Source of the DNA: Plebeiibacterium marinum
GTDB lineage: Bacteria; Bacteroidota; Bacteroidia; Bacteroidales; Marinilabiliaceae
Assembly (NCBI RefSeq): GCF_026013615.1
Contig: NZ_JAPDPI010000004.1
Location: 62,001-126,000, forward strand
Direction of reading: 5' to 3'
Length of the DNA: 64,000 bases
Of the stretch, positions 9,420 through 24,129 are shown piece after piece; the first letter of the stretch is position 1, and the number at the start of each line of letters is the position of its first letter. A program made the position numbers and the translations under genes. Under the pieces are notes generated by a model. The model did no database searches. It was not told where the DNA came from and was given only the letters and a program-made list of their open reading frames with translations.

Positions 9420-9434
9420 TAATTCTGTCACACT

Positions 9435-9584: not shown

Positions 9585-9609
9585 AATAATTTGTTTTAAG
9601 GTTAAAAAA

Positions 9610-10038
9610 CTATAAACACTTTAATGTTTTGCGATTATAAATATAACCTATTAAAAGGACACATAAACCAAGTAGAGCCAAAAATGTAGGAGGCTTTGCG
9701 GTTGAATGGGTTCTGAGTATTAAAGTGGCATAAATAGAAGTTAAATCTATTGTTACACCAGTTGCAAATATTATCCCGGGAATCCAGCTTATTTTTGTTA
9801 ACGAAAATTTAACCTGAAGCAGCGCAATAACTATTGCCACTGCAAGAAACCCACCTCCAACAGCCCGCATTAAAGCCAATATTAAAATCTGCACACTACT
9901 ATCCAAATCATTCCAGGTTGCATGTAAAGCCTCTCCATGGTATGACATAAAAGTATTATTAAAAAGATATAAACAGCCAAATATAAAAAGGATAACAGAC
10001 GCAAGATAGTTGGATATATTTCCTATTTTCTCATTCAT
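9610..10038 (-). CDS. Conserved four-helix membrane protein of unknown function
   Basis: A 142-residue protein with four predicted transmembrane segments (about residues 12-30, 50-75, 85-107 and 118-135). It contains MSYHGEAL, DLDSSVQILILALMRAVGGGFLA and a final short basic tail. I recall similar small integral membrane proteins with the LMRAxGGG motif in Bacteroidota, but no function is known to me. It probably forms a two-gene unit with the PspC-domain gene downstream. The ATG at 10038 is the only good start. Confidence 0.6.
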   Translation of the reverse strand: MNEKIGNISNYLASVILFIFGCLYLFNNTFMSYHGEALHATWNDLDSSVQILILALMRAVGGGFLAVAIVIALLQVKFSLTKISWIPGIIFATGVTIDLTSIYATLILRTHSTAKPPTFLALLGLCVLLIGYIYNRKTLKCL

Positions 10039-10167
10039 AGTTTTTTACATAAGTTATGTCGGTAATTCATCTTAGAGCATTCGAAACTATAAAAAAAAAT
10101 ATACATACAGCAATATAGTAGTTAAAATTTATCCATCAGCTACACACTTCAATGCAGACTTTAATCA

Positions 10168-10198
10168 TTGATTACCATCACTTGCTCATATATTTTTG
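10168..10198 (+). promoter_or_regulatory. Probable Bacteroidota promoter for the cysteine desulfidase-type gene
   Basis: TTG at 10168-10170 and TATTTTTG at 10191-10198, with the spacing expected for -33/-7 elements. Transcription would begin near 10205, leaving a leader of about 88 nt before the ATG at 10293. The -33 element is incomplete. Confidence 0.5.
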
Positions 10199-10292
10199 CA
10201 TACCAGGTCACCCATATTAAAAAAAAAGTTGTCTTAGTAATATACCAGGACCACAAATGGCACTGTGTATTTTCAAATTAAAATATAAACAA

Positions 10293-11573
10293 ATGGATAA
10301 ATCTGATAAATTATATTCTGCCTACCTGGACATTCTGCATGAAGAACTTATGCCAGCCATGGGGTGCACCGAACCCATTGCCATTGCTTATGCAGCAGCC
10401 ATGGCGCGAAAAGTACTTGAAGATATGCCCGATCGGGTTGAAGTGTATGCTAGCGACAACATTATTAAAAACGTAAAGAGTGTTGTTGTTCCCAACACAG
10501 GTAACTTAAGGGGAATTAAGGCTGCTACAGCTGCAGGTATTGTTGCCGGAAATGCAGATAAAGTTCTTGAAGTAATCTCGGAAGTAAGCAGGGAAAAACA
10601 AAAAGAAATCGCTCTCTTTCTTGACTCCACCGACATTAGCCTGCACAACTCCCCGAATGATATTATCTTTGACATCATTGTTAAGGTTTATGCAGGCAGT
10701 TCATGTGCCTCGGTACAAATTTCCCATTACCATACAAATATTGTTCACATAGGGAAAGATGACAAGGAGGTATTTCATACCCAGCCATGCGATGACATAA
10801 ACCAAACAACTGTTACCGACAGGTCAATAATGACGGTTGAAGGCATTATCGACTTTGCAGAATCTGTTGATATTGATAAGGTAAAAGATGCCTTGCAGAA
10901 GCAGGTAAAATATAACTCAGCTATAGCTGAAGAAGGAATTAAAAACAAATGGGGCGCAAATGTTGGTTCTGTATTATTAAATACTTGGGGAAATGACATT
11001 AAAACAAGGGCGAAAGCCTTTGCTGCTGCCGGATCGGACGCCAGAATGAGCGGATGTGAACTGCCTGTTGTAATTGTTTCCGGAAGTGGAAACCAGGGAT
11101 TGGCAGCCTCTGTGCCTGTTATTGAATATGCCAAAGAACTCCAGGTTGATCAGGATACTTTATATAGGGCCTTATTGATTTCAAACCTGGTTACCATCCA
11201 TCAAAAAACCGGAATCGGAAGGCTTTCTGCCTATTGTGGAGCCATATCTGCCGGCATCGGAGCTGGTGCAGGAATCACTTGGCTTTTGGGTGGTAAATAT
11301 GAAGAAGTTGCCCATACTATTGTGAATGCCCTGGCAATTGTATCCGGAATTATTTGTGATGGAGCCAAACCCTCTTGTGCCGGAAAAATTGCCTCTGCTG
11401 TTGAAGCAGGTATACTCGGTTATCATATGTATAAAAACGGACAACAATTTTATGCAGGAGAAGGCATTGTAACAAAAGGCGTTGAAAATACAATTAAAAA
11501 CATCGGCCGACTAGGTAGAGACGGTATGGCCCAAACGGATAAAGAAATTATAAAAATCATGCTTGGTGAGTAA
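10293..11573 (+). CDS. L-cysteine desulfidase / serine dehydratase-alpha-like protein (UPF0597, CyuA/YhaM family)
   Basis: Members of this family degrade L-cysteine to pyruvate, ammonia and sulfide using a 4Fe-4S cluster. The 426-residue length fits (about 430 in enterobacteria). Conserved cysteines are visible in MGCTEPIA (C25), MSGCELP, AYCGAISAGIGAG and ICDGAKPSCAGK; three of these are the likely cluster ligands. I chose the ATG at 10293 (MDKSDK...), which matches the family N-terminus; an in-frame ATG at 10257 would add 12 residues. It stands alone with a likely promoter at 10168 and a strong terminator at 11608. Confidence 0.88.
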   Translation: MDKSDKLYSAYLDILHEELMPAMGCTEPIAIAYAAAMARKVLEDMPDRVEVYASDNIIKNVKSVVVPNTGNLRGIKAATAAGIVAGNADKVLEVISEVSREKQKEIALFLDSTDISLHNSPNDIIFDIIVKVYAGSSCASVQISHYHTNIVHIGKDDKEVFHTQPCDDINQTTVTDRSIMTVEGIIDFAESVDIDKVKDALQKQVKYNSAIAEEGIKNKWGANVGSVLLNTWGNDIKTRAKAFAAAGSDARMSGCELPVVIVSGSGNQGLAASVPVIEYAKELQVDQDTLYRALLISNLVTIHQKTGIGRLSAYCGAISAGIGAGAGITWLLGGKYEEVAHTIVNALAIVSGIICDGAKPSCAGKIASAVEAGILGYHMYKNGQQFYAGEGIVTKGVENTIKNIGRLGRDGMAQTDKEIIKIMLGE

Positions 11574-11607
11574 GGTTTACAACCTTCTTAGTTGCTGACA
11601 ATAATAC

Positions 11608-11644
11608 AAAACACCGGGAACACTTATTCTCCCGGTGTTTTTTT
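11608..11644. terminator. Strong bidirectional intrinsic terminator
   Basis: AAAACACCGGGA (11608-11619) pairs perfectly with TCCCGGTGTTTT (11630-11641), with a T tract to 11644. The A tract on the left makes it functional for the convergent minus-strand gene ending at 11658 as well. Confidence 0.92.
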
Positions 11645-11657
11645 GATGTTTTTGAAC

Positions 11658-12518
11658 TTATTTCAAATAGCTTTTTGAAGGAACATAGCCCCTAACCAGC
11701 TTATCCCTATACCCTGCTTGTAAAAGGTAATTATAAACAAGTAACTGGATGATTTCATTCCCCTCTGCTAACAACTGTGAAGACAAAACCTTATCCAACT
11801 GTTTATTTATTAACCGTTCTGTCTTTACCAATTGTATAATATTATTTAAAGTAGTGACAGGTACATTTGATTGCAACATTTGAAATACACTTTCAGGATT
11901 CTTTTTATACAAATCTCTTACTTGCTCTAATGTCATTGACCCTTGTAATCCTAAGTTACCGGAATCCCAATTTCGAATAGTCGTTTCCCTAACAATATCT
12001 TTTATTTCTCCATTTACAATGTGCCATAAAACATAACAAGTTTTTACCGCACCCCGAACACAATCATACCCGGTACTTACAACCGTAGCGCCAGAAAAGG
12101 CATCTACATTATAATACGCTTCTTCTGACTCGTGAGGAGAGAGCTTATCTAACTTATAGAATCCAAGTTCTGAATTTTGATCATTGAGTAGCTCGTGCAA
12201 CCGAAGATAATCTCTATCATTAAATATTTCACTATCTATTTTGGCTAATCCGGTTTTATCCTTAAAACCTAACTTTAAAAAATTACCCCATGCATCCCAA
12301 TAAATGCGTACATTCATGGGATAACACTCTTTTATATCGGAGGGATACTCGTTAATGTCCATGTAATAATAAACCGGCAATCCCTTTTCATCATTAACCT
12401 GAAATAGCTGACATGCAGCCGACTTTTCATATACCAATTTAGGTTCAGCATTATTTTTTGCTTGTGCGTTCATGCTCATCCAAAGCAACGCTATCGCTAT
12501 ATAAATACAGTTTTTCAT
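11658..12518 (-). CDS. Secreted FMN_bind-like protein with a DxxSGAT flavinylation-type motif
   Basis: A 286-residue protein with a signal peptide (residues 1-20, ending NAQA). Its central part contains VDAFSGATVVSTGYDCVRGAV, split here as DAFSGAT (139-145) and the following helix. This matches the Dxx(S/T)GAT sequence at which ApbE/Ftp transferases attach FMN to threonine in NqrC, RnfG and FMN_bind proteins, making T145 the candidate. The rest is unlike classic FMN_bind proteins, and the C-terminal 100 residues look helical and novel. It is the last gene of the minus-strand redox locus, before a strong terminator. No apbE is in the window. The domain call is from one motif and its context, so is tentative. 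Confidence 0.6.
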   Translation of the reverse strand: MKNCIYIAIALLWMSMNAQAKNNAEPKLVYEKSAACQLFQVNDEKGLPVYYYMDINEYPSDIKECYPMNVRIYWDAWGNFLKLGFKDKTGLAKIDSEIFNDRDYLRLHELLNDQNSELGFYKLDKLSPHESEEAYYNVDAFSGATVVSTGYDCVRGAVKTCYVLWHIVNGEIKDIVRETTIRNWDSGNLGLQGSMTLEQVRDLYKKNPESVFQMLQSNVPVTTLNNIIQLVKTERLINKQLDKVLSSQLLAEGNEIIQLLVYNYLLQAGYRDKLVRGYVPSKSYLK

Positions 12519-12563
12519 AAAGTTTCAATTTTCAATTAACAGTTATCAGTCTTCTGTAATCGG

Positions 12564-12622
12564 CTTACCCTTTAACCTTTTTCCCTTTAACCTTTCCCCT
12601 TGTTCCTTTCTCCTTGTTCCCT
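12564..12622. repeat. Degenerate pyrimidine-rich intergenic repeat
   Basis: The 106-nt gap between the FMN_bind-like and DUF5777 genes contains CCCTTTAACCTTT twice and CCTTGTTCC twice in tandem, interleaved with CCCTT and CTTTC units. No coding or hairpin structure is apparent. Confidence 0.6.
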
Positions 12623-12624
12623 TC

Positions 12625-13467
12625 TTAATTTGTATGTGGTTTTACGTTGATGTTAAATCCAAAGCAAAATTGTTCAGGGTTGAATCCGATTTGGTTGTTC
12701 AGGTATTCTTTGGCGGGATTGATATGACTTCCATTGGATACAAACAGTTGAAAATTATGCGTTCGGGTTTTAAATATCATTCCCAGTGTTACCAAAGGTT
12801 TGGGTTGTTGTGGATTTTCTTCGGAGGCAGAAGCCAGTCCTAAAGGAAAATCAAAGGAGGCAAACACGGCTTTTTTTCTATTCAGTTTAAATGAAAGTGA
12901 TGGGTTAATAGCCAGAAAAGTAGAAAAGTTACCTTCCGGAACGATATTGAAATGTGCTATAGTTGCATTGGCCATCATTTCCCAACGATGATTAAAAATA
13001 TGTGTAAGAGAAAGTTGAGAAGTGTAGAAAAAGCGATTGATAAAGTAATAGTTTTCACCAAAATACTTTTCATCGCGGCCATCGATAGAAACACTAAAGC
13101 TGGCGGCCAGACCAACAGGATTATCTAACTCTTTATTTTGTTCTGATAAAAGATAACGGATTCCCAGTTCCTGCGTTTTATTTAGCTTTTCGGTTAAAAA
13201 GTAAGCTGAAAAAACATCGCTAAAACCATATTCTAAACCCATTTGAATATTGGCCGAACCATAAACTCCAAACATATCTTTAAAACCATTTTCGCCAATC
13301 GCATCAAAATAGTGAATCACAAAAATCTGGTTTTGCCCTTTGTAAGGCATATTGGTGGTGGGATGATTTACCAAACGTCCATCCCAAATATGATTGGCTG
13401 AATTGTGTTGAGCATGCAGCATACCTGAGAGTATGAGCATGATGAATATGATAACTTTCCTTTCCAT
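12625..13467 (-). CDS. DUF5777-family outer-membrane beta-barrel protein
   Basis: A 280-residue exported barrel: signal peptide (MERKVIIFIMLILSGMLHAQ), then alternating amphipathic strands and a C-terminal strand typical of outer-membrane proteins (FCFGFNINVKPHTN). The opening HIWDGRLVNHPTTNMPYKGQ and the FVIHYFDAIG...DMFGVYGSANIQMGLEYGF segment fit the DUF5777 barrel family, which in Bacteroidota often neighbours cytochrome c and YceI genes. I chose the ATG at 13467; a TTG at 13476 is the alternative. It begins 13 nt after the upstream cytochrome c lipoprotein gene and is therefore in the operon. Its function is not known. Confidence 0.75.
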   Translation of the reverse strand: MERKVIIFIMLILSGMLHAQHNSANHIWDGRLVNHPTTNMPYKGQNQIFVIHYFDAIGENGFKDMFGVYGSANIQMGLEYGFSDVFSAYFLTEKLNKTQELGIRYLLSEQNKELDNPVGLAASFSVSIDGRDEKYFGENYYFINRFFYTSQLSLTHIFNHRWEMMANATIAHFNIVPEGNFSTFLAINPSLSFKLNRKKAVFASFDFPLGLASASEENPQQPKPLVTLGMIFKTRTHNFQLFVSNGSHINPAKEYLNNQIGFNPEQFCFGFNINVKPHTN

Positions 13468-13480
13468 ATGCTTCAATCGT

Positions 13481-13981
13481 TTAATTGTCTTCGGCTCCCT
13501 GCTGAATCCAAAGCTGTATTTTCTTTAACTCATTATCGGTAATAGCGCCTTCAAAAGGATGACTGTCTTTTAGTTTTAGTACCAATTTGCTTGATGAAGC
13601 ATCGCCCTCTTCAATATAATTGCCTGTCCATAATGCCTGATAAGCTTCGTTTTGTAATAAACTAGGATACGATACTACACCATCATGGCAAGAAATACAG
13701 GAACTTTTAAAAATGGGAATGATGTCTTCGCTAAAACTGATAGCCTGTGTTTCTTCTATCTCTTTTTCAATGATTACATCGTAATAGCAACCATGAACAA
13801 TAAGAGTAAAGGCAAGAAAACTAAGTGCTTTTGTAAACCTTCTTATTAGTTGAGGAGACACAAGTATAAAGATGCAAGTATCAAGACACAAGACGCGAGA
13901 TACCTGATTAAATGGCAAGAGCTTTTTCTTTGAAAAACCAATGCTACTTTTAGATGTTTGGAACGTTCTTTTATTTTGCAT
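13481..13981 (-). CDS. Mono-heme cytochrome c lipoprotein, N-terminus disturbed by a repeat
   Basis: The heme site is CISCH within FKSSCISCHDG, and the C-terminus ends in IQLWIQQGAEDN, the LxxWIxxGA ending of planctomycete-type (PSCyt1-like) cytochrome domains. A lipobox (IVHGC) follows the hydrophobic stretch ALSFLAFTL, but in the ATG-started frame (13981) it sits at about residue 65, far too deep for a signal peptide. The bases at 13861-13905 coding for the stretch before it are an intergenic-type repeat. Start at the GTG at 13861 (MSPQLIRRFTKAL...) would give a normal lipoprotein signal. I give the outer ATG, 11 nt after the upstream stop; the true start is uncertain. It is probably anchored in the envelope as an electron carrier. 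Confidence 0.7.
   Translation of the reverse strand: MQNKRTFQTSKSSIGFSKKKLLPFNQVSRVLCLDTCIFILVSPQLIRRFTKALSFLAFTLIVHGCYYDVIIEKEIEETQAISFSEDIIPIFKSSCISCHDGVVSYPSLLQNEAYQALWTGNYIEEGDASSSKLVLKLKDSHPFEGAITDNELKKIQLWIQQGAEDN
13861..13905 (+). repeat. Degenerate repeat of the CAAGTATCAAGAC family, inside a gene 5' end
   Basis: Contains ATGCAAGTATCAAGACACAA and GACGCGAGATAC. The same wording occurs in reverse orientation at 17101-17170. The copy falls in the 5' part of the cytochrome c lipoprotein gene. Confidence 0.65.
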
Positions 13982-13991
13982 CTGATTCTGA

Positions 13992-14678
13992 TTAATTGTT
14001 TAAAGCACCTTGTTCTATCCAATCCATCACCAGCTGTCGGTCGGCTTCTGTAGCTGAACTACTGGCCGGATGGTTAAAGTCAATTTCCTTTTGCAGCACT
14101 TTTAGTAAATAACTATAGTCGGCACCATTCGGATAAACCAATACCATATTGGGTTGCATAAATGCAGCTACATTTACCAAATGCTCGTAGCTGTTGTCCG
14201 GCGTCAGATTTAAACCGGCAGCGATATCTCCGGCCGAACTACCATGACAAACTACACAGTTGTTAAAAACCTGTCGTTGCACTCTATCATAAGTAATCAA
14301 CTGAATATTTTCGATTGATTCGTTGATATTGTCGTACACATCATAGGTACCTAAATCCAAAACTTTTACTTTGTAAATGCCATTTTCTGTCAGATAGAGC
14401 TGCGCATTGTAACTACCTTCTGCAACCTCGTAAATACTGGCATTAACACTACTGTTTGCAGGTTGATTCAGGTTAATATGGGCAACCGGATTGCGGGTGT
14501 CATCGTCCTCAAATAAACCAATATGCAACAGTTGACCTTCGGGCCAGAATTCCGGATCGATAAAGGAAAGCGACATATTTACATTCCAGGTATTGCCCAC
14601 TTCTTCCTCGTAAGGATGTGTGCAACTACTGAAAAAAGTTATGCCACTTACTACTAAAATTCCTATCCACTTCATCAT
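13992..14678 (-). CDS. Cytochrome c-domain lipoprotein with an N-terminal beta-sandwich-like region
   Basis: A 228-residue lipoprotein: MMKWIGILVVSGITFFSSC gives a lipobox ending at C19. An all-beta region of about 100 residues follows, then a heme site CVVCH in NNCVVCHGSSAGDIAAG and the LVMDWIEQGALNN ending, which parallels the WIQQGAEDN ending of the next gene. The two cytochromes thus look like related PSCyt1-type domains. I chose the ATG at 14678: it gives the signal peptide directly and has AAAGG just upstream, whereas the upstream GTG/ATG options add cytoplasmic-looking residues that overlap the previous gene. It begins 10 nt after the porin stop, in an operon. Confidence 0.82.
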   Translation of the reverse strand: MMKWIGILVVSGITFFSSCTHPYEEEVGNTWNVNMSLSFIDPEFWPEGQLLHIGLFEDDDTRNPVAHINLNQPANSSVNASIYEVAEGSYNAQLYLTENGIYKVKVLDLGTYDVYDNINESIENIQLITYDRVQRQVFNNCVVCHGSSAGDIAAGLNLTPDNSYEHLVNVAAFMQPNMVLVYPNGADYSYLLKVLQKEIDFNHPASSSATEADRQLVMDWIEQGALNN

Positions 14679-14688
14679 ACCTTTAGGT

Positions 14689-15912
14689 TTAAAATGCAAA
14701 TTGCAGTTGAACACAAACGCTATGCTCACTCATCCCATTGTCATCATCATTGGCTTCGGCCACAGAGGCATGGCCTGCTTTACCCATAAACTGATACATG
14801 GTTTGAATTTTTAGATTATGTCCGGCCAAAAAGTAGTTAAAACCAACAGCAGGCATATATAAGTATCCGGCTTCATCAATGGAGTTTCTGTCCATCATAT
14901 CAAAACGGGTTGCCAACTGTACTTTAGGCGATAAAAAATACCCAGCCTGAGCGTATCCTCCCCAGAAAGTATATACCGGAGATGTTTGCTGACGCTCCAC
15001 AAAATCCATACTAAGCAGGTAGGCTTCAGCAGCCACATACCAGCGGTTATATAAAAGGGCAAACTCGCAACCTGCTCTCATATCGTTGCTGCTTTCGTAG
15101 TTGGCTTCCAGACTATAAGAACCAGATACACCCAATAGCATATATTTTTCATCTAAACGATCGGGGTGTCCCTGATATTTAGGCATCTCGCCTAAGGACA
15201 TGTACACCAATCTCCCAGAGTATAAAAGTGCAGGAAGTCCAGTGTCATCACTAATGGAATTAGTTGCGCTATTAACACCAATTCCGGTTCCATTAAAAAC
15301 GCCCAATTGATATCCAATTTTTTTATTGAGAACACCATGCATCTGAACACCAATATCAAAACCTGTAGCAATAGTGGGATTGACAGAGTTGATACTGAAT
15401 GGCACATTTACTCTGGCATTTAATGATGTGGGTAATAATGGAAATAAGGTTTGTCCGTTGCGGGATAAATAAGCCTGATTAAAAGGTGTTTTAAATTTAC
15501 CAATACGAAAACGAAGCGCATCACTTTGGTTAATATCGAACCAGGCCTGGTTTAAAATAGCAGCACCTGATGAGGCTGCATTTAAGGCTACGTTATAGGT
15601 AATTTTATTAAACGCTTTACCTGCAAAACCCACCAATGCAAAAGGAACTGCAAAACCAGAGTTCATTACGTTATCTTCTTCGGCCAGGCTTAGACCTTCA
15701 TCATCGTAGTAATTATAAATGCCACGAGTTTGAATTAAGGTATACGGTTTAAAAAGGAAATCACCTTTTTTAGTACTCCATGTCATTCCGTCTTTATCGG
15801 CAATAGAAATTAAACCGTTGTCGATATATTTATTTAAAGTGCTGTCGGTTTGCGCCTGAATAAACGAAACCGATAAGCAAAACAGGATTAATAGGTATAA
15901 ATTCTTCATCAT
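14689..15912 (-). CDS. Porin-like outer-membrane beta-barrel (OprP/OprO-type)
   Basis: A 407-residue barrel: signal peptide MMKNLYLLILFCLSVSFIQAQ, then an N-terminal GMTWSTKKGDFLFKPYTLIQTRGIY region typical of phosphate-selective porin O/P-like proteins (SxDGRxxFRPRG in Proteobacteria), IGKFKTPFNQ, and a C-terminal aromatic strand ending in QLQFAF. I chose the ATG at 15912 because GAGGAGG lies 7-13 nt upstream, one of the few strong Shine-Dalgarno sequences in the window. It starts 13 nt after the Rid-like gene stops. The solute is unknown; despite the family name, phosphate specificity cannot be inferred. Confidence 0.8.
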   Translation of the reverse strand: MMKNLYLLILFCLSVSFIQAQTDSTLNKYIDNGLISIADKDGMTWSTKKGDFLFKPYTLIQTRGIYNYYDDEGLSLAEEDNVMNSGFAVPFALVGFAGKAFNKITYNVALNAASSGAAILNQAWFDINQSDALRFRIGKFKTPFNQAYLSRNGQTLFPLLPTSLNARVNVPFSINSVNPTIATGFDIGVQMHGVLNKKIGYQLGVFNGTGIGVNSATNSISDDTGLPALLYSGRLVYMSLGEMPKYQGHPDRLDEKYMLLGVSGSYSLEANYESSNDMRAGCEFALLYNRWYVAAEAYLLSMDFVERQQTSPVYTFWGGYAQAGYFLSPKVQLATRFDMMDRNSIDEAGYLYMPAVGFNYFLAGHNLKIQTMYQFMGKAGHASVAEANDDDNGMSEHSVCVQLQFAF

Positions 15913-15925
15913 TATTTCCTCCTCA

Positions 15926-17086
15926 TTAAAAGCAGTTGTATGCTTTGTTATTGATTTCCTTAACTGCAATACATTCTATTTCAATTAACCATCCCGGACG
16001 ACAAACAGGAGCCAGAACAATTATGTATGGCAAGTGCGGATAATTCTTTTTCATGTACGCTTCGGTAACATTATAATCTGCTACATCGCGCAGGTAAACA
16101 ATCATGCTGCTGATATCATCCAGATTAGATTCTGCTTCGCTTAATAAAGCCTGAATATTTTCGAAGGTGCGGTTGATTTGCCCATGAATATCACCCACGT
16201 GTACAATCTCTCCTTTGTTATCGATACTTGCAGTTCCGGAAATGAATATCTGTCTGCGATCGCCATAATCAACAGCAGTTCCTCGTTCAAAAGCTACTCC
16301 GTATTCGTGTGTTGGATTCAGGTAATCACGAGCTTCTAAAAATTTAATTTGCTCGGGCTTGATTCCGCCAACAGCATACGTATCCAGTAAGACTAAAGCA
16401 GAAGGATCGGCAAAACGACCTTCGATTCCTGTGCTGGTAATAAAATGCGTATCCTTGGTCATTTGGTATTGATCAAAGATTTCGTTTCTGGCTTTAACCA
16501 TTCCGGCGTAGTTGTTATCAATATCGCGCACATAAAACCAGGTTCTAATACAATGCTCTTTCAATGTTAAATTATGACCATCAAGCATACGCAGATAATC
16601 ATCGAAAATATGATTGGTTTGATCATAAGAGCAATAATTATCTTTATCGCCAATCATTTGTGTGGTATACATATGCTGGTAACCATTGTGGTCAATCACC
16701 AGTTTGCAATCGTCCTTTTCTTTCCTGAAAATGGCATTCTCTTTTCCTTTATAGATGGTAGTCCACAAGGCCACTTTATTGCCGTTTAAAGGACTTTGTT
16801 GTACGATGGACAAAGCACAATCACAGTTAAATAAATCGGCATTGTATAAGTCTGCGGATTGATTGGTGAAATCGCTCACAAATAAACGTTGAAAGGCAAT
16901 GTCGTCAGAAGTACAGGCTTCTTTTTTAAAGAATAATTCCAAACCTAATCGTAAGGCATTTATTTGTTCATCAATGGAACCATTTATGGTTGGTTGCATG
17001 ATGATGTTGTATTCTTCAGAATTAGCTCCATCAAATTTGGAGTAATTTATATCTACCAGGTTTGTTTTAATTTTATCGAAATACAT
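15926..17086 (-). CDS. Chorismatase-like protein with tandem Rid (YjgF/UK114) folds
   Basis: A 386-residue cytosolic protein, with no signal peptide, built of two Rid-type halves. The C-terminal half shows IFISGTASIDNKGEIVHVGDI, then GQINRTFENIQALLSEA and VCRPGWLIEIECIA (R363, E369, E371). This wording matches the FkbO/Hyg5/XanB2 chorismatase branch of the Rid superfamily, where the EIE glutamate is catalytic. The central TWFYVRDIDNNY and TSTGIEGR segments also fit that branch. Chorismatases release pyruvate from chorismate to give hydroxybenzoates or dihydrobenzoates. I chose the ATG at 17086, since the upstream ATG at 17113 is read out of an intergenic repeat. Activity is inferred by family only; it could be a Rid-type imine deaminase. 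Confidence 0.68.
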   Translation of the reverse strand: MYFDKIKTNLVDINYSKFDGANSEEYNIIMQPTINGSIDEQINALRLGLELFFKKEACTSDDIAFQRLFVSDFTNQSADLYNADLFNCDCALSIVQQSPLNGNKVALWTTIYKGKENAIFRKEKDDCKLVIDHNGYQHMYTTQMIGDKDNYCSYDQTNHIFDDYLRMLDGHNLTLKEHCIRTWFYVRDIDNNYAGMVKARNEIFDQYQMTKDTHFITSTGIEGRFADPSALVLLDTYAVGGIKPEQIKFLEARDYLNPTHEYGVAFERGTAVDYGDRRQIFISGTASIDNKGEIVHVGDIHGQINRTFENIQALLSEAESNLDDISSMIVYLRDVADYNVTEAYMKKNYPHLPYIIVLAPVCRPGWLIEIECIAVKEINNKAYNCF

Positions 17087-17100
17087 AAGTTTGTTTTTTG

Positions 17101-17170
17101 TATCAAGTATCATTTACCTAAATACGACGTAAATCAGTCTTGCGTCTTGATACTTGTATCTTGTATCTTT
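17101..17170 (-). repeat. Degenerate intergenic repeat (AAGATACAAGTATCAAGACGCAAG family)
   Basis: On the minus strand it reads AAGATACAAGATACAAGTAT then CAAGACGCAAGACTG, ending in a second ATACTTGATAC. It fills nearly the whole gap between the DHOR gene and the Rid-like gene. The same unit lies at 13861-13905 in the other orientation. Confidence 0.7.
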
Positions 17171-17172
17171 AA

Positions 17173-18576
17173 TTATAGTGATCGCAAAAACATGATAAGT
17201 GTTTCACGTTCTTCTTGTGTCATTTTTGAGAATAGCTGTCTGGAAACATCTCCTTCTCCTCCGTGCCACATGATGGCTTCCGTAAAGTTTCGGGCTCTTC
17301 CATCGTGTAAAAAATGACTATGACCGTTGACTACTTCCTGCAGGCCTATTCCCCATAAAGGTGTGGTTCGCCACTCGTCGCCGGAAGCGTTGAACTGGGA
17401 ATAATCGTCACCTAATTCCGGACCCATATCGTGTAATAAATAATCGCTATATGGATGTATGGTTTGTCCCCCCAGCCATGGTAAGTTTGTACCATCCAAC
17501 AGTTTTACACCTTCTTTTTGAGTATGAAGCGTAGGCGTGTGACATAAATGACATTTGGCCTGATAAAAGAGATCTTCGCCTTTTTGTACTGTCTCGTTTT
17601 GAACGGCTCTTCGGGCAGGAACACCCAAGGCGTGCATATAAAAATCTACGGCTGCCATTTCTTTTGTTGTAATCTGTATACCATATTCCCCGGTTACCTG
17701 TGATTGTCCTTCAGATACTTCATGCGGATAGCGATCATTGGTTACGCCCATGTCAGATAAAAAACCAAGCTCTACCGTTAAGTCAGCATGTTGGGCTTTA
17801 TGACCCGATAAACCTATTTGTTTGGTATTACGTTCTGTAATCCAGTTAATTTCTCCTGAGATACCATATTCCGGGTATTGAATACTGGCTAATTCTTTAA
17901 TTTCATCTTTATCAACGGCAAGCATTAAACCCATGCCCACATGGCGCAAGGGGGTGCGCACCGACATTTCTAATTGCTCCACAGGAATAGAATCGGCATA
18001 CCAATCATAAATTTCGTAGTGAGGCGTAATTAAACTATAAGTTTCTCCATCGGGAAAAGAATAGTGCTCTTCTGTATAAGTTGCACGCACCTTACCCTCT
18101 GGCTCCGATCCGTAAACCGCCTGATCGTGTAATACGCGACCGTAATTTTTGTGATTCTGACCATTGGGGGTGCGGATAAAAGTCAGGAAAGAAGAGAACC
18201 CATATTGGCCTGTTCCCCCATCTGTAAATAAAGTAGATTTTGTTCTTCCGGCATCGTTGTGGCAACTGGCGCATGAGTAACCTGCATACACTGGTCCTAA
18301 GCCACCATTCACAGGATTACCATCTGATACTCTGGGGTTATCATAAAGTGCATCCCCTTCTAAAAAGAGTGCAGACAATTCCCCTGTCACCCATGAGGCG
18401 GGTGTGTCAAATGCTTTACTGGTAGAATTAAAAACGGTCGATTCTCCGGCAGATAACTCCTCTGGTAGCGCAACCCTGCCACCGGGTGTCAGGATATCCT
18501 CAGATTCGTTAATACTACATCCGGCTATCCAGGTTCCGATAATGACCATTACAATTAGAATTTTCCTTTTCAACAT
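17173..18576 (-). CDS. Di-heme oxidoreductase (DHOR/DUF1111, putative peroxidase) lipoprotein
   Basis: A 467-residue lipoprotein (MLKRKILIVMVIIGTWIAGC, lipid site C20). It has two c-type heme sites: CASCH at 102-106, inside GYSCASCHNDAGR, and CHLCH at 342-346, inside KCHLCHTPTL. The arrangement, with LRHVGMGLMLAVD between them and WRTTPLWGIGL...HLHDGRARNFTEAIMWHGGE near the end, is that of the DHOR family related to di-heme cytochrome c peroxidases (MauG/CCP). The ATG at 18576 gives the signal peptide directly. DHOR genes are commonly found beside imelysin genes, as here. It likely faces the periplasm or surface and exchanges electrons with the smaller cytochromes in the locus. Confidence 0.9.
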   Translation of the reverse strand: MLKRKILIVMVIIGTWIAGCSINESEDILTPGGRVALPEELSAGESTVFNSTSKAFDTPASWVTGELSALFLEGDALYDNPRVSDGNPVNGGLGPVYAGYSCASCHNDAGRTKSTLFTDGGTGQYGFSSFLTFIRTPNGQNHKNYGRVLHDQAVYGSEPEGKVRATYTEEHYSFPDGETYSLITPHYEIYDWYADSIPVEQLEMSVRTPLRHVGMGLMLAVDKDEIKELASIQYPEYGISGEINWITERNTKQIGLSGHKAQHADLTVELGFLSDMGVTNDRYPHEVSEGQSQVTGEYGIQITTKEMAAVDFYMHALGVPARRAVQNETVQKGEDLFYQAKCHLCHTPTLHTQKEGVKLLDGTNLPWLGGQTIHPYSDYLLHDMGPELGDDYSQFNASGDEWRTTPLWGIGLQEVVNGHSHFLHDGRARNFTEAIMWHGGEGDVSRQLFSKMTQEERETLIMFLRSL

Positions 18577-18727
18577 CGTAATTATTATCTGATTGTTCAC
18601 ATGCAATTGGTTTGAAGAACCTTTTGCACAATAGGCTATAAGTTGTTGTTAGTACTCGCAGAGCGAAAGGTCTTTGTAAATATGTTAGAGATTGTTTTTC
18701 CTTTTAATTTCTCACTAAAAACTTGAT

Positions 18728-18761
18728 AAAAGAACTATCCTTCGTTAAGGACAGTTCTTGT
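18728..18761 (-). terminator. Hairpin after the imelysin gene, probable (partial) terminator
   Basis: AAGAACT, a mismatch, TCCTT, a CGTT loop, AAGGA, a mismatch, AGTTCTT. Read on the minus strand the second arm runs into TTTTATC. It would separate the porin-imelysin pair from the genes downstream or reduce read-through to them. Confidence 0.55.
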
Positions 18762-18815
18762 GATATAGATAAGTATTGCGATTTTATCCAATACTCACCT
18801 TGAAAAGGAAAACAA

Positions 18816-19931
18816 TTAGTCAATAAATAATGGTCTTACTTCATCGTCGAAAACCGCGGCTACAGCATTAACTGCATCCATTGCTGCATTGACTTTTTCT
18901 TCATTATTTAAATTATTTCTGAACGGGTAAGGAATATCAGCGATCGCATTGATAGCATCTGAGATTAAACCCTTAACTTTTATATCTAATTCAGCATCTT
19001 TTTCTTTTACATAGTCAGAAAGGCAAGCACCTGAAGTTCCGCCATCATATCCTCCTAAATATGAGTTTTCAATACTTTTGATGTTGTTTTGGAAGTCAGT
19101 CAATGAGTTCCAGCTAAACCATGATTCAACCTCCAATACATCTCCGCTACTTACCGGATCAGCAATTTTAGCGTTAGCAACCTCATCGGCAATACCTGAA
19201 ATACCTAATAAAATTTCATCTACAGCATCCGTTTGAGACAGGTAAATACTTCCTGCATTTCCTGCATTTTTAAGGATCTCGGCATAAGGAGTTCCTAACT
19301 CAAGTTCTAACTCTTCAGCCAAAGCTGCCTCTGCTGTCCCTTCTTCAACACCAGCCCATAGCGCCCATAAATTCAAACAATCGTCTCTTAATACCTCTGT
19401 AACAGCTACTAAATACTCTTTTTCACGATCGCTAACATCAGTTGCAACTCGAGCTTGTCCATCGCGGAACAACAAGTATTCAATCGTGTGAAAACCTCTT
19501 AATACTGCACCTAAAGCATCTTTTACATAGGCTGCATCAATTGTTTGATTGCTGGCCAAAACCTGATCCAGCTGAGCCTGATCCAATGGCCATGAATCTA
19601 ATAGGGGATCTAAACTTTGGTTGGCAGCTGGTCCGAACAAAAAGGCCTCACTACATTCCCAGGGCTGACGGGTTTGTTTCCAATATTCGCAAGCCAAATT
19701 GATGTCGTCCTGAGATCCTGAGGCTAAAAAATCTTCTGTAGCACCCAACATTAACGCCGATTTATCTTTCATATCAGCATAAGTAGGCACTACTGTATAG
19801 TCAACATAATCAGCAATAATTGCTGAAAAGTCATAATCATTCCCATAAGTTTCGTCGCCTGGCGTATCGTCATCGGAACAAGCATTAAATAAAAGAGCTG
19901 CAATAGCACTAAATAGTATTAACTTCTTCAT
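18816..19931 (-). CDS. Imelysin-family (M75-like) lipoprotein
   Basis: A 371-residue lipoprotein with signal MKKLILFSAIAALLFNAC (lipid site C18). The imelysin GxHxxE motif is GFHTIE at residues 146-151, within VLRGFHTIEYLLF, followed by the helical repeat region with CLSDYVKEKDAEL near the end. Imelysins are helical-bundle proteins related to EfeO and IrpA and are linked to iron uptake; peptidase activity is doubtful. The gene follows the porin at 48 nt, and a hairpin at 18728 follows it. Its position before a DHOR gene repeats a known association of the two families, which supports a shared role in handling iron or another metal at the envelope. Confidence 0.88.
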   Translation of the reverse strand: MKKLILFSAIAALLFNACSDDDTPGDETYGNDYDFSAIIADYVDYTVVPTYADMKDKSALMLGATEDFLASGSQDDINLACEYWKQTRQPWECSEAFLFGPAANQSLDPLLDSWPLDQAQLDQVLASNQTIDAAYVKDALGAVLRGFHTIEYLLFRDGQARVATDVSDREKEYLVAVTEVLRDDCLNLWALWAGVEEGTAEAALAEELELELGTPYAEILKNAGNAGSIYLSQTDAVDEILLGISGIADEVANAKIADPVSSGDVLEVESWFSWNSLTDFQNNIKSIENSYLGGYDGGTSGACLSDYVKEKDAELDIKVKGLISDAINAIADIPYPFRNNLNNEEKVNAAMDAVNAVAAVFDDEVRPLFID

Positions 19932-19979
19932 ATTATTAGTTTTTAAAGTAAACATTGTTAAGTATTGAAATTGTGTTTG

Positions 19980-21236
19980 TTATTTCTGCATAAACCAGCC
20001 TGTGTAAACCAAGGCTAAACCAAAGGTGTTCTCGTGGTTATAATCACCTAACCCTATTCTTCGGTGGCTGTAATCTGCTTTCACGGCTACTGCCGGAGTC
20101 ATAAAATAATTAACCCCGAATGTTGCCACATCTCTTTTATATCGGGCATCGGCCAACATATCGGCTGCTGTGTTTTCCATAGAGTTGTAATATTCGTATC
20201 TGGCAAAAGGAATAATCCGGCTGCCTTTTTCTTTTAACTGAAAGGCATAACCACATTCCACTCCGTATGCCAGGGCATTTTGAGCAACCGGAGTACGCTG
20301 GTATTGAATGTTTTTAGAAATATTTTTGTTGATAGATGAGATCTCGTAAGAATCAGACAGGTTTCCCCATACTACATTTCCCCGGGCGATGATTTTACGA
20401 TTGTTAAACTCAAAATCTCCCGTAACAATACTTACCTGACCTTTAAGGTCTCCCATTTTTTCTGGCTTTTGAGTATTACCAGTGCTATTGCCAAAATATC
20501 CGGAAGAGCTTAATCGTAAATTTTTAATACTCGAATTTTCAATACGATAGGCAAAAGCCGGATCGGTCATTTTTACATTTTCAAATAATCCTTGTTTACC
20601 TGATCTAACCCAATAGGCTGATGAAAAACCATTGGCATCCAATCCGTTTATAATAAACAATTGAGCTCTCCATCTTTTATAATTAGCATTAAACGAGATT
20701 CCTGTTTCGTGCCAGGTTAATGGAATAATTGATGTTTCACTTTCAGGCCTAACTGTTCCGAAGTAGGTAACAGATTCGTGACGCGCATTGGTTTGTCCAA
20801 CGGGAACAATTAAATGACCGATAGATAAACTATAGTTGGCATTAAAGATTTTGGTAATATGCAATTGTTCCAATACTACTTCACCTCCATGCTCCACCTC
20901 CATTTCATATTCGCCGGCCTCTTCGTATTCCAATTCTAAAGCAGATCCGGTACCTCCATATTCAAATTCAATTTCGGAAGTTAAAACAAGGTCATCTCTG
21001 AATTTATAATCGAATGAAAAAACCACACGAGGTAAGGTGATAAATGCCCTGTTTTCTTTTTGAGCACCATCTGCATTACTGTATCTGTCGGCGCTATAAT
21101 CCATTCTTTGGTATAGGATTTCGCCATAACCACCAAAGCGGTATTTAGAAAAATCATTTTGCGCATTAGTACTTTTACAAACAATAACAAAGATAACCAC
21201 GCATACTATCCTCAAAAATATCTTTTCCATTTTCAT
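19980..21236 (-). CDS. Porin-like outer-membrane beta-barrel, first gene of the imelysin/DHOR locus
   Basis: A 418-residue barrel with a signal peptide (residues about 1-25, ending TNAQ), FGGYGEILYQRMDYS near the N-terminus, a series of amphipathic strands and a terminal strand FGLALVYTGWFMQK. An acidic loop is notable: ELEYEEAGEYEMEVEHGGEV, near residues 98-118, contains nine Glu and a His, and could bind cations. The DKFRDDLVLTSEIEFEYGGTG region and IGHLIVPVGQTNARHES resemble OprO/P-like or carbohydrate-type porins. It is promoter-proximal in the nine-gene minus-strand locus. The substrate is unknown. Confidence 0.78.
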   Translation of the reverse strand: MKMEKIFLRIVCVVIFVIVCKSTNAQNDFSKYRFGGYGEILYQRMDYSADRYSNADGAQKENRAFITLPRVVFSFDYKFRDDLVLTSEIEFEYGGTGSALELEYEEAGEYEMEVEHGGEVVLEQLHITKIFNANYSLSIGHLIVPVGQTNARHESVTYFGTVRPESETSIIPLTWHETGISFNANYKRWRAQLFIINGLDANGFSSAYWVRSGKQGLFENVKMTDPAFAYRIENSSIKNLRLSSSGYFGNSTGNTQKPEKMGDLKGQVSIVTGDFEFNNRKIIARGNVVWGNLSDSYEISSINKNISKNIQYQRTPVAQNALAYGVECGYAFQLKEKGSRIIPFARYEYYNSMENTAADMLADARYKRDVATFGVNYFMTPAVAVKADYSHRRIGLGDYNHENTFGLALVYTGWFMQK

Positions 21237-21595
21237 CAGTGTGACTTATTAATCAAATATGAACATCACAAAACAATGGATTATATTAAAGAGGGGCAAT
21301 ACCCAATGATTGGTAAAGATGTATATCACCATTTATAGTTAGAGGGGTACAAAAGAAATATCACCTATAAAATAATGACACCTCCTCCTAAAAAGTGAAG
21401 AAACAGACAATAAGAAGTTATATCTTCAAAATATTGTTGAAGACATTGCAAATCATAATTATATTTATAACATAAATACAACTACAACTTTTAGGTATTT
21501 TTGTTCAAAATATAGTTTAGGATTGAAGATATATAGTCAAAAACCTGTAACAAGAATTAGGGGTAAGAAAATCCCTGTTGATTCAAGAAATTGGT
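21237..21595. other. 359-nt non-coding region upstream of the envelope redox locus
   Basis: Lies between the divergent ends of the porin gene (start 21236, minus) and cinA (stop 21596, minus). I find no good TAnnTTTG promoter pair. It contains TCTTCAA (21423-21429) and TTGAAGA (21437-21443), a 7-bp inverted repeat with a 7-nt spacer, and a second TTGAAGA near 21523. These could be regulator half-sites for the locus, but the evidence is slight. Confidence 0.3.
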
Positions 21596-22837
21596 TTATT
21601 TATTTTCGATCATTTTTTTTAACATGACCAATGCCATTTCTGAGGCCCGGATAATATTTCTTTCACGAATGGTGCCAAACTGAAATTTTTCACTTATAGT
21701 TCTATCTGGTCCTGATACTGAAATCCATACTGTTCCTACTGGTTTTTCTTCCGTTCCTCCATCCGGCCCTGCAATTCCCGAAGTGGCCACAGCATAATCT
21801 GAATCCAATGCCTTTCTGGCACCCCGAGCCATTTGTTCCACTACTGGCTGGCTCACGGCTCCATAATTGGCTAAATCGTCATCACTCACACCAAGTATGT
21901 GTTGCTTTACCTGATTATGATAGGCAACCACACTGCCTTTAAAATAAGCGGAACTGCCAGGCAATGAGGTAATCATATGTGCAATATTGCCTCCCGTACA
22001 ACTTTCTGCAGAAGACAGGGTAAGCTCCTTATTCAAAAACAGTTCTGCAATTATTTTGGTAATACTAACATCTTCAAGGGCCAGAATATTATTGCCTATT
22101 ATGGGCTTTAGTTGCTCAACCAAGGTAGTAATCTCTGCCTCCAAGTCAGCTTTAGACTCTCCCCTCCCGGTAAACCTCAGGCGGATTTGTCCGGGAGCAG
22201 GCAAATAAGCAAGGCTTATATGCGAAGCGATACCTCCTTCAAAGTCCTCAAGCATTTCTGCCAGAACAGCTTCAGGGATTCCTTGCACTAAAACTGTTTT
22301 ATGAACAATGCTACCTATGTTAAACTTTTCAACCAGCTTTGGAATTATATTGAACTCCATGGCATATTTCATTTCAGAAGGGACTCCTGGCATAGAAACA
22401 AAAACAGTTCCTTCATGTTCAAACCACATTATTGGTGCCGTACCTACCGGATTACTAATAACAGTGCAATTGGCCGGAACCATGGCCTGACTACGATTGA
22501 GTTTATTAATATTAGAGACATATCGTTTAATTAACGACTTAACATTTTCAAAGACCTCCTGGTTAAAAACCAATTCTGTATTAAAATATTTACATAAAGT
22601 TTCCTTGGTAATATCATCTTTTGTAGGTCCCAAACCACCCGTTAACAAAACAACATCTGCCCTATCAGACGCTTCACTCAGGATATTTAAGATCTCCTCT
22701 TCTGTATCGCGTATGGAATTGATACGTGACACTTCAAATCCTGCTTCGTTCAGTTTTCTTCCCATCCAGGCAGAATTGGTATCCACAACCTGCCCTATTA
22801 AAAGTTCATCTCCTATTGTAACTATTTCCAGATTCAT
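21596..22837 (-). CDS. cinA: CinA-family protein: MoCF-like N-domain plus nicotinamide-nucleotide amidase (PncC) C-domain
   Basis: A 413-residue cytoplasmic protein. The N-terminal molybdopterin-binding-like domain shows EIVTIGDELLIGQVVDTNSAW and LLTGGLGPTKDDITKETL (ADP-ribose pyrophosphatase domain in CinA). The C-terminal CinA/PncC domain from about residue 250 shows the AESCTGGNIAHMIT motif and ATSGIAGPDGGTEEKPVGTVWI. The two-domain length matches CinA. It probably hydrolyses ADP-ribose and deamidates NMN in pyridine nucleotide recycling. A palindromic element at 22851 lies just before its start. Confidence 0.95.
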   Translation of the reverse strand: MNLEIVTIGDELLIGQVVDTNSAWMGRKLNEAGFEVSRINSIRDTEEEILNILSEASDRADVVLLTGGLGPTKDDITKETLCKYFNTELVFNQEVFENVKSLIKRYVSNINKLNRSQAMVPANCTVISNPVGTAPIMWFEHEGTVFVSMPGVPSEMKYAMEFNIIPKLVEKFNIGSIVHKTVLVQGIPEAVLAEMLEDFEGGIASHISLAYLPAPGQIRLRFTGRGESKADLEAEITTLVEQLKPIIGNNILALEDVSITKIIAELFLNKELTLSSAESCTGGNIAHMITSLPGSSAYFKGSVVAYHNQVKQHILGVSDDDLANYGAVSQPVVEQMARGARKALDSDYAVATSGIAGPDGGTEEKPVGTVWISVSGPDRTISEKFQFGTIRERNIIRASEMALVMLKKMIENK

Positions 22838-22850
22838 AAGTCTCTCCTAA

Positions 22851-22867
22851 CCTCCCCAAGGGGGAAT
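22851..22867. repeat. Short G/C palindrome (CCTCCCC-AA-GGGGGAA)
   Basis: The 53-nt gap before cinA contains CCTCCCC and GGGGGAA around a 2-nt centre, followed on the minus strand by GTTAGGAGAG and the cinA ATG. This wording resembles a short palindromic repeat common in intergenic DNA of many Bacteroidota, here placed so that the hairpin directly precedes the cinA ribosome-binding site. Confidence 0.45.
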
Positions 22868-22890
22868 TTGATTTTCAGTTTTAAAAACTA

Positions 22891-24129
22891 TTATTTTTTT
22901 ATACCCTTTAATGCCTTTATCCTTTGCAACAAGGGTGGATGCGAGTAATGGAAAAACACAAACCATGGGTGTGGGGTTAAATTACTCAATGCATTAACCG
23001 AAATGGTTTTCAAAGCTCTTATTAATGATTCAGGGGTATGATATTTAGCTGCAAATTCATCCGCTTCGTACTCGTTTTTACGGGATAAAACGGTACTAAA
23101 CAATCCCGTGATCCCTGAAATAGGGCTATACAATATACCAAAGGCTATCAGCCCAATATGAAAAACCGGCTCCTCCACTCCTAATGCCTGGGATAATAAT
23201 GGAGAATCAACAAATATTGAAAAAATGTACAGCATGATACCCGTTTGAATAATACCTGAAATCATTCCCCAGAGAGTATGCTTCTTCTTGTAATGTCCAA
23301 TTTCATGTGCCAAAACTCCCACTATTTCATCAACCTCAAGGTCATTTATCAAAGTATCATATAACACAATCCGTTTCTTAGCTCCAAGTCCGCTAAAAAA
23401 CGCATTTGCCTTAGTACTTCTTTTTGAACCATCCATTACATATACATTATCCAGCTTAAAACCCACCTTTTCACTGAACAACTGAATAGCTGTTTTTAAC
23501 TCTCCATCATCCAAAGGTGTTTGCTTATTAAATAGCGGCAACAAAACCGAAGTATAAAACATAGTAACAAAGAGCATAAACGCAGTTACTAATCCCCAGG
23601 CATATAACCAAAAATACTCCCCTGCAATGGTATAAAACCAAATTAACAAGGCCATAATTCCTCCACCCAGAATTGCTCCCAACAGTAACGATTTAACAAG
23701 GTCTAAAACAAATGTTTTAGGGGTGGTCTTATTAAATTCAAACTTTTCTTCGATAACAAAAGTACTATAAACAGAAAATGGGATATTTAAAACTGTTGAT
23801 GCCAGACCTATAATTCCAAAGAAAACCAAAGCCCTCACAATCGGGCTATCACTAACCCCCAAAGCCCATTGATCTGCAATAGCAAAACCTCCGGCAAAAA
23901 GCATAACCAACACCAATACCATATTGAAAACTCCTGTAAACCAGCCAAACCTATGATTCACTTGAGAATAGCGCTGTTGCTTTGCATATTTTTCCTCATC
24001 ATAGATCCCCTCTAGTTCTGCAGGTATTTTTTCAGACCACCTGGTTGTATTCAAGTATAATAAAAATCGATCCCAAATAAATTCAACTATAATAATTGAA
24101 ATAATAATATAAAATATTGTTGTGTACAT
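22891..24129 (-). CDS. M48 metallopeptidase, Ste24/CAAX-protease type
   Basis: A 412-residue integral membrane zinc protease. The HExxH motif is HEIGH in VGVLAHEIGHYKKKH near residue 280, and the third zinc ligand lies in NEYEADEFAA near 350. There are about seven hydrophobic segments, including the N-terminal one (FYIIISIIIVEFIW) and the SRKNEYEADEF region typical of Ste24p. Length and the KFEFNKTTPKTF motif match the CAAX prenyl protease 1 family. In bacteria such proteins act in membrane-protein quality control. It follows lgt across a 140-nt gap that holds a terminator, so it probably has its own promoter. Confidence 0.93.
   Translation of the reverse strand: MYTTIFYIIISIIIVEFIWDRFLLYLNTTRWSEKIPAELEGIYDEEKYAKQQRYSQVNHRFGWFTGVFNMVLVLVMLFAGGFAIADQWALGVSDSPIVRALVFFGIIGLASTVLNIPFSVYSTFVIEEKFEFNKTTPKTFVLDLVKSLLLGAILGGGIMALLIWFYTIAGEYFWLYAWGLVTAFMLFVTMFYTSVLLPLFNKQTPLDDGELKTAIQLFSEKVGFKLDNVYVMDGSKRSTKANAFFSGLGAKKRIVLYDTLINDLEVDEIVGVLAHEIGHYKKKHTLWGMISGIIQTGIMLYIFSIFVDSPLLSQALGVEEPVFHIGLIAFGILYSPISGITGLFSTVLSRKNEYEADEFAAKYHTPESLIRALKTISVNALSNLTPHPWFVFFHYSHPPLLQRIKALKGIKK

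Follow-up and report, generated by a model that had tools for sequence, protein, structure and literature searches.

Nine consecutive genes on the minus strand of Plebeiibacterium marinum, in the 64,000-nucleotide (nt) stretch analysed here (contig NZ_JAPDPI010000004.1, positions 62,001 to 126,000; hereafter, the window), contain an operon core that is conserved across several families of the Bacteroidales. This core encodes two outer-membrane porin-like barrels (P9 and P5), an imelysin lipoprotein (I), a di-heme lipoprotein of the DHOR family (D), a monoheme c-type cytochrome lipoprotein (c4, or cytochrome-4), and a cytosolic protein, R, with the predicted fold and putative active-site residues of chorismatases. 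We propose, with a probability of about 0.45, that this conserved operon joins the redox handling of iron at the outer membrane to the synthesis of an aromatic acid from chorismate. The operon is conserved yet uncharacterised, and it extends the imelysin-DHOR theme with porins, a cytochrome, and a chorismatase-like enzyme.

The conserved core

A genome collection was scanned with an alignment of five DHOR proteins, and the best 80 of at least 513 confirmed relatives were used as loci; these were searched in all six frames with profiles of the nine families and of four neighbours that recur. Fifty-one of the 80 were well flanked, with at least 4 kb before and at least 6 kb after the DHOR gene. 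Core members were counted on the same strand within 9 kb, and hemerythrin and LuxR genes on either strand within 10 kb. Since the loci were picked by their likeness to the DHOR of the window, these counts describe its clade rather than all DHOR proteins. All six core families occurred together in 50 of the 51 well-flanked loci: P9, imelysin, Porin_O_P (P5), and a monoheme cytochrome were each present in 51, and R was present in 50, being absent from L123. Two CxxCH heme motifs were found in all 82 matched DHOR fragments. The hosts belong to the Marinilabiliaceae, Marinifilaceae, Tannerellaceae, Bacteroidaceae, Rikenellaceae, Dysgonomonadaceae, Muribaculaceae, and other families, and include the cultured gut species Parabacteroides distasonis, P. 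goldsteinii, P. gordonii, and Phocaeicola plebeius. The gene order is DHOR-R-porin-cytochrome in the marine group and mostly DHOR-porin-cytochrome-R in the gut group.

Beyond the core and the accessories named here, no family occurred in more than five of the 80 loci (blastp at E 1e-12, open reading frames (ORFs) of at least 100 amino acids), in a search where many loci were cut by contig ends and the ORF filter dropped some genes. The unconserved flanks provide an internal control against plain synteny, and the core is not an accidental cluster. A grouping without shared function could appeal to the lineage-specific presence of DUF5777 (B), a second small cytochrome (c3, or cytochrome-3), and a protein with a flavinylation-type motif (F), and to nothing in the core itself, where six families recur in 50 of 51 loci between flanks that do not; we rejected it for the core and give it next to no credence. 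The distance matrices of five core families correlated at 0.53 to 0.92 over 60 loci, a comparison without an unlinked control gene that was not used as evidence.

An earlier note, made from the sequence of the window alone, held that the locus would be accidental if these genes were scattered in homologous genomes; they are not scattered there. Its nine-gene unit has to be reduced to the six-gene core: DUF5777 (4 of the 51 loci), cytochrome-3, and the flavin-motif protein (5 of the 51) form an extension found in few loci, whereas R is a core member. The other accessories were CcsBA, for cytochrome c assembly (25 loci), DAHP synthase (3), hemerythrin (29), and LuxR (28). The parts of the operon and their linkage can be read directly from the loci. 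The nine ORFs of the locus, all confirmed at their stated coordinates, are as follows.

19980-21236, minus strand: P9, outer-membrane porin-like barrel, first gene of the operon (PF07396, 25.5 bits; 51 of 51 well-flanked loci)
18816-19955, minus strand: I, imelysin lipoprotein of the IrpA type (PF09375, 211.1 bits, cut-off 23.5; CSDDD after the lipobox; GFHTIE, a GxHxxE motif; 51 of 51 loci)
17173-18606, minus strand: D, DHOR di-heme lipoprotein (PF06537, 228.4 bits, over the cut-off; two CxxCH)
15926-17113, minus strand: R, cytosolic two-domain Rid/chorismatase-like enzyme, so called from its score (PF01042, 69.9 bits), predicted fold, and conserved residues
14689-15969, minus strand: P5, Porin_O_P barrel (PF07396, 111.2 bits; 51 of 51 loci)
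13992-14729, minus strand: c4, monoheme c-type lipoprotein (CxxCH; PF13442 below the cut-off; such a cytochrome in 51 of 51 loci)
13481-13981, minus strand: c3, second monoheme lipoprotein, extension (CxxCH; ORF start uncertain)
12625-13476, minus strand: B, DUF5777 outer-membrane barrel, extension (PF19089, 142.6 bits)
11658-12518, minus strand: F, secreted protein with the flavinylation-type motif DAFSGAT, extension (motif kept in six of six near members)

Six of the nine proteins exceeded their Pfam cut-offs, which bears out the earlier assignment of two porins, imelysin, DHOR, DUF5777, and a Rid-type protein. The flavin-motif protein and the two small cytochromes fell below; the latter reached 17.5 and 16.8 bits with PF13442, and both have the CxxCH motif noted earlier. 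The secreted protein does carry the DxxSGAT motif reported for it, as DAFSGAT at residues 139-145. The nine genes are consecutive and on one strand, as had been described, and a spacing of mostly 4-90 nt is correct for most gaps (4, 10, 24, and 59 nt, with two overlaps of 41 and 44 nt, from the listed ORF ends) but not for the 106 nt between DUF5777 and the flavin-motif gene or the 209 nt between imelysin and DHOR. In the ORFs of DHOR, cytochrome-4, and cytochrome-3, translation probably begins downstream of the listed start. A short repeat (starting GATACAAGTATCAAGAC) has two copies inverted to each other, one in the DHOR-R gap (17138-17160, minus strand) and another inside the 5' part of the cytochrome-3 ORF (13871-13893, plus strand), and this second copy makes the true start of cytochrome-3 uncertain; the genome has six sites of the repeat at up to one mismatch, compared to none for a backward control.

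The imelysin occurs once in the genome of the window. Additional DHOR genes were seen elsewhere. The same-genus relative carries, just upstream of the core, an additional DHOR gene with 35% identity to that of the window (L032, 3598-4977); this gene has a perfect palindrome of its own, of the kind described below (L052, site at 5587). A set of divergent DHOR (25%), imelysin, and porin genes around 3 kb from R in a different genus of the family (L046, 13435-17624) is perhaps a second type of this system.

R within and outside the operon

The structure of R was modelled from 40 sequences with a mean predicted local distance difference test (pLDDT) score of 92.6. Fold comparison matched the model to 5a3k (Z 31.7, root-mean-square deviation 2.8, 298 aligned), to FkbO (4bps, Z 31.6), and to 5ag3 (Z 31.5), the best single-domain Rid protein reaching 18.1; the two-domain Rid-like chorismatase fold covers most of the R chain in this prediction. 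Glu334 of Hyg5 is described as catalytic, with Gly, Gly, and Cys typical of the 3-hydroxybenzoate-forming class, CH-II (PMC7170507). By a hand count on a profile alignment, these residues map to E378, G229, G293, and C371 of R. They are nearly invariant in the 88 rows of the R family, near-duplicates included: E378 in 86 (two gaps), G229 in 87 (one Ala), G293 in 88, and C371 in 87 (one gap). The Arg and Glu of the last motif in the C-terminal domain are common to RidA, so it is the fold and the remaining residues that carry the argument for a chorismatase. R is like FkbO, Hyg5, and XanB2 in its predicted two-domain Rid fold, catalytic Glu, and CH-II residues; it differs from them in scoring below the TIGR04444 cut-off and in belonging to a cytochrome operon rather than to a polyketide or pigment cluster.

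Within the operon, three loci also contain DAHP synthase, the entry to the chorismate pathway (L057 and L065, identified by Pfam, and L084, identified by profile); they represent three genera, two families, and two positions, which fits a drain on chorismate. These genes also bear on another explanation, in which R is a housekeeping detoxification gene merely sitting in the operon. The two residues shared with RidA would suit such a role, as would the 12 of 18 R-bearing genomes of the family where R has no DHOR or imelysin nearby. However, a bystander would not be expected in 50 of 51 loci and at either of two positions, with a whole-length chorismatase fold and, in three loci, a DAHP synthase; we consider this explanation highly improbable.

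The association between R and DHOR was also examined in 247 genomes of the order, including that of the window, with matches taken at E 1e-30. R was present in 22 and DHOR in 18. Twelve genomes had a strong DHOR (E below 1e-100), and R was found in 10 of these versus 12 of the 235 others (Fisher 2e-10, or 1.9e-9 when the window's own genome was removed); counting all 18 DHOR genomes, the figures were 10 of 18 versus 12 of 229 (Fisher 1e-7). R and DHOR were at most 5 kb apart in 8 of the 10 genomes, around 48 kb apart in G289, and on separate contigs in G305. As to the two genomes with a strong DHOR but no R, the match in G242 lies 1 kb from the contig start on the side where R would be expected, and G306 is 65% complete.

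A strong R match was found in 18 of the 71 genomes of the family. In one of those with the core (G055), the contig ends after DHOR; in G063, R lies 3 kb from a different DHOR-imelysin-porin set, and in G062, a P9-like porin lies around 8 kb from an otherwise unlinked R. In a quick tree with some long branches, the unlinked R proteins are nested among the linked ones, with 4 label changes compared to 14.1 in shuffles. Hence, the operon nearly always has R, but R also lives without the operon. No shared partner was found among five annotated proteins in the unlinked neighbourhoods (three in L039 and one each in L036 and L040).

Other R neighbourhoods were noted in passing. Three loci of one genus (L038, L040, and L048) have R neighbours of like sizes. 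In another same-genus genome, the genes after a divergent R (39%) encode PSD1/PSCyt2, DUF1501, and WD40 proteins (L039, 2697-8825). In P. gordonii and P. goldsteinii (L105 and L112), R is present twice, and a separate hemerythrin-LuxR pair follows each copy. Remote R paralogues (around 25% identity) were discarded as guides to function: their 10 neighbours at three loci were SusD, signalling, transport, and other genes, with nothing aryl-polyene-like among them.

Envelope proteins, extension and regulation

The closest solved relative of the imelysin is 4ecg, "Putative iron-regulated protein A" (E 3.1e-55), whose GFHTAE aligns with the GFHTIE of the window. Imelysin and DUF1111 proteins have been linked to iron uptake in a study that left their chemistry open and called the biochemical role of imelysin poorly understood (PMC3143127), and an imelysin lipoprotein is listed in a table of a Fur study on another species of Bacteroidota (PMC5609570). 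The pairing of imelysin and DHOR in iron-linked loci, mentioned in the earlier note, matches the operons of the former study. Among these, Pseudomonas PA4370-PA4373 likewise has a GxHxxE imelysin lipoprotein beside a DUF1111/DHOR di-heme protein and no EfeU; in the operon described here, the core also includes two porins, a monoheme cytochrome lipoprotein, and a chorismatase-like enzyme, and CcsBA or hemerythrin/LuxR genes often lie nearby. EfeUOB also pairs an imelysin-domain protein with a heme protein for iron, but no EfeU permease, cupredoxin domain, or DyP-type EfeB is found among the nine proteins, to which the search for EfeU was confined, and the score with the EfeO profile NF041757 is 20.2 bits, below its cut-off of 270. 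No earlier description of the operon was found in the open-licence text searched; one may exist elsewhere or in Figure 8 (genomic contexts) of PMC3143127. Excerpts of two papers on B. thetaiotaomicron (PMC12000045 and PMC13370916) do not mention imelysin.

A regular-expression survey found a lipobox-like site in 68 of 73 imelysin, 78 of 82 DHOR, and 57 of 69 cytochrome fragments, followed by at least two acidic residues in 57, 63, and 49, respectively; since the expression overlooked the imelysin of the window (FNAC) and, in some rows, hit heme sites instead, these counts are rough. The acidic pattern after the lipobox cysteine resembles the SDDDD and SDDFE surface export signals of lipoproteins (PMC5080379), which suggests that the imelysin, DHOR, and cytochrome are on the cell surface. 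The CxxCH motifs of the locus total four (2 + 1 + 1), and the earlier reading of an electron or metal route at the outer membrane, with at least four hemes, fits.

A rival reading is an oxidant defence or peroxide respiration, with DHOR as a surface peroxidase that reduces H2O2 with electrons from the monoheme lipoproteins while hemerythrin and LuxR sense oxygen or nitric oxide. The Pfam text does call DHOR a putative peroxidase, and hemerythrin and LuxR genes are frequent near the core (29 and 28 of the 51 loci). Yet the imelysin and the chorismatase-like enzyme, present in nearly every locus, would be left unexplained, and, since DHOR had no relative among solved structures at E 0.1 in one phmmer search, its activity is not readable from a solved relative in either direction. 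We regard this role as unlikely.

The extension adds a candidate flavin carrier in the lineage of the window. The flavin-motif protein scores 14.8 bits with the FMN_bind family PF04205, below the cut-off of 22, and matches were found in 9 of 395 genomes of the phylum, its own included. Its six near members, that of the window among them, all keep Dxx[ST][GS]AT. Eight of the nine other match places, in seven genomes, were taken as distant members (the weakest, G412, was left out), and six of these eight keep the motif; L142 has DAKAGAT, and L143 has none. An ApbE gene adjoins the flavin-motif gene in two distant relatives (L142 and L145), with a FAD_oxidored protein in L142, in a Pfam check that covered some distant members only. 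The genome of the window has three ApbE genes over the cut-off, elsewhere than in the operon. The model of the protein is of low confidence (pLDDT 63.6); of the 50 rows shown, just two match its N-terminal half, both of them RnfG chains (Z 6.3 and 5.7, ranks 3 and 11), and the helical half gave unspecific helical matches only (Z 7.1 at best), which were set aside. The protein is like the ApbE-flavinylated FMN_bind proteins such as RnfG (PMC8238504) in its DxxSGAT-type motif, its secretion, and the ApbE gene beside two distant relatives; it differs in its FMN_bind score, in the helical C-terminal half of the low-confidence model, and in having no ApbE among the nine genes. The possibility of one covalent flavin, raised in the earlier note, is strengthened by the conserved motif and the two ApbE neighbours, but the fold match was weak; a covalent flavin on this protein is likely.

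A flavin-type carrier, two porins, and cytochrome lipoproteins, together with a weak likeness of P5 to the porin ExtI (27 bits, cut-off 150), could also be put to another use, namely, a mediator-based extracellular electron transfer in which the aromatic product, perhaps after additional oxidation by DHOR, acts as the shuttle and iron merely as the acceptor. This seems quite unlikely, for the set includes no multiheme conduit, only one or two carriers with a single heme, and the literature ties imelysin families to iron uptake (PMC3143127).

Three further features of the window concern the expression of the operon, with the palindrome and the terminator-like stem marking the two ends of the unit.

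21298-21317, minus strand: operator-like palindrome TTTACC-N8-GGTATT, 81 nt upstream of P9, two mismatches to AATACC-N8-GGTATT
18730-18759, minus strand: 13-pair hairpin between imelysin and DHOR (-16.7 kcal/mol, z -5.19)
11608-11641, minus strand: terminator-like 13-pair stem after the last gene

The palindrome AATACC-N8-GGTATT, at up to two mismatches, is present in 39 of 68 upstream regions, compared to 2.2% of block shuffles. In a hold-out test, from which the loci of derivation and near-duplicates were removed (n = 54), it preceded the first gene in 31 of the 54 loci, whereas 59 permuted palindromes averaged 1.1 and never exceeded 6; for 26 of the 31 sites, the distance to the start downstream is 71 to 110 nt. 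Upstream of other genes, the palindrome was found for 12 of 39 hemerythrin genes, but its frequency was near the shuffle rate for R (2 of 71), P5 (1 of 77), and CcsBA (0 of 33). If NarL-type sites are a guide, the spacing of the palindrome presumably fits a regulator of the GerE type, like the LuxR protein encoded nearby. Hemerythrin and LuxR/GerE-like parts are, by eye, fused in single ORFs in L107 (13624-14583), L128 (13776-14774), and L129 (2169-3443), which supports the pair working as one regulator, and this pair is the likely regulator of the operon.

Cytochrome-3 is divergent from P9 in L065, L084, and L109. In L084 and L109, DUF5777 is divergent along with it, and a perfect palindrome of their own lies 69 nt before the cytochrome-3 start, placing both genes in the same regulatory unit there. 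In L065, a second perfect palindrome (1389-1408), the same as that of P9, lies beyond the divergent cytochrome-3 gene. The hairpin between imelysin and DHOR is possibly an attenuator or a processing site. Among 13 other loci in which this gap was folded, counting gaps of up to 120 nt, seven fold at -15 kcal/mol or below without a shuffle control (L057, L065, L084, L104, L105, L109, and L110); L055 and L056 have no room, and the others are weak or atypically long. No known RNA family was found in 9000-23000 at gathering thresholds.

A possible route for iron

From these parts, we infer an iron role, a product of R, and a direction of electron flow as follows. The imelysin, DHOR, and cytochrome lipoproteins would face outward beside the two porins. 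R would convert chorismate into 3-hydroxybenzoate (or a mixture of 3- and 4-hydroxybenzoate) and pyruvate, and the aromatic acid would be exported to serve as a redox partner or a ligand for iron. DHOR would alter the redox state of the iron held by imelysin, trading electrons with the monoheme lipoprotein, and the iron would enter via a porin. In the lineage of the window, this chain may be lengthened by the second cytochrome, DUF5777, and the flavin carrier.

Several observations weigh against iron handling coupled to aromatic acid synthesis. The gene set of the operon contains no known iron permease or Fur gene. R scores 53 bits against the TIGR04444 cut-off of 325 and so is not filed in the FkbO/Hyg5 subfamily. 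In one study, iron reduction favoured compounds with adjacent hydroxyl or amino groups (PMC7064749); 3-hydroxybenzoate is without such groups and would need modification or act as a ligand. The linkage between R and DHOR has its exceptions too: R is absent from all six genomes whose DHOR match is weaker (E 1e-57 to 1e-31), R comes without a strong DHOR of this type in 12 of the 247 order genomes, and the 18 R genomes of the family comprise 5 with the core, 1 beside a different set, and 12 without DHOR or imelysin in the fetched stretches, some of which are short (in L043, the ORF filter lost even the R gene). Finally, the regulatory evidence is poorest in the window's own genome. Its palindrome copy has two mismatches; the genome has 39 palindrome sites per strand at up to one mismatch versus 30 for the backward control, barely above it, so a wider palindrome regulon is unsupported there; and its hemerythrin-LuxR pair is not on the operon's contig but on another (C118), with only a two-mismatch palindrome 268 nt upstream.

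A broader and rather doubtful version of the proposal is that gut and marine Bacteroidales share a surface machine for anaerobic iron mobilisation, in which a self-made aromatic acid would diffuse and serve an outward-facing imelysin/di-heme/cytochrome complex as ligand or redox partner, under a hemerythrin-LuxR sensor of iron or oxygen acting on AATACC-N8-GGTATT; this would be a third route beside siderophores and Feo. To our knowledge, the use of c-type cytochromes by the Bacteroidales and their mobilisation of iron outside heme and siderophore uptake are poorly understood. With this operon, the imelysin family would gain a fixed set of partners, one of them an enzyme that makes a metabolite and predicts the chemistry, and the presence of the operon in cultured gut species opens the idea to gene deletion.

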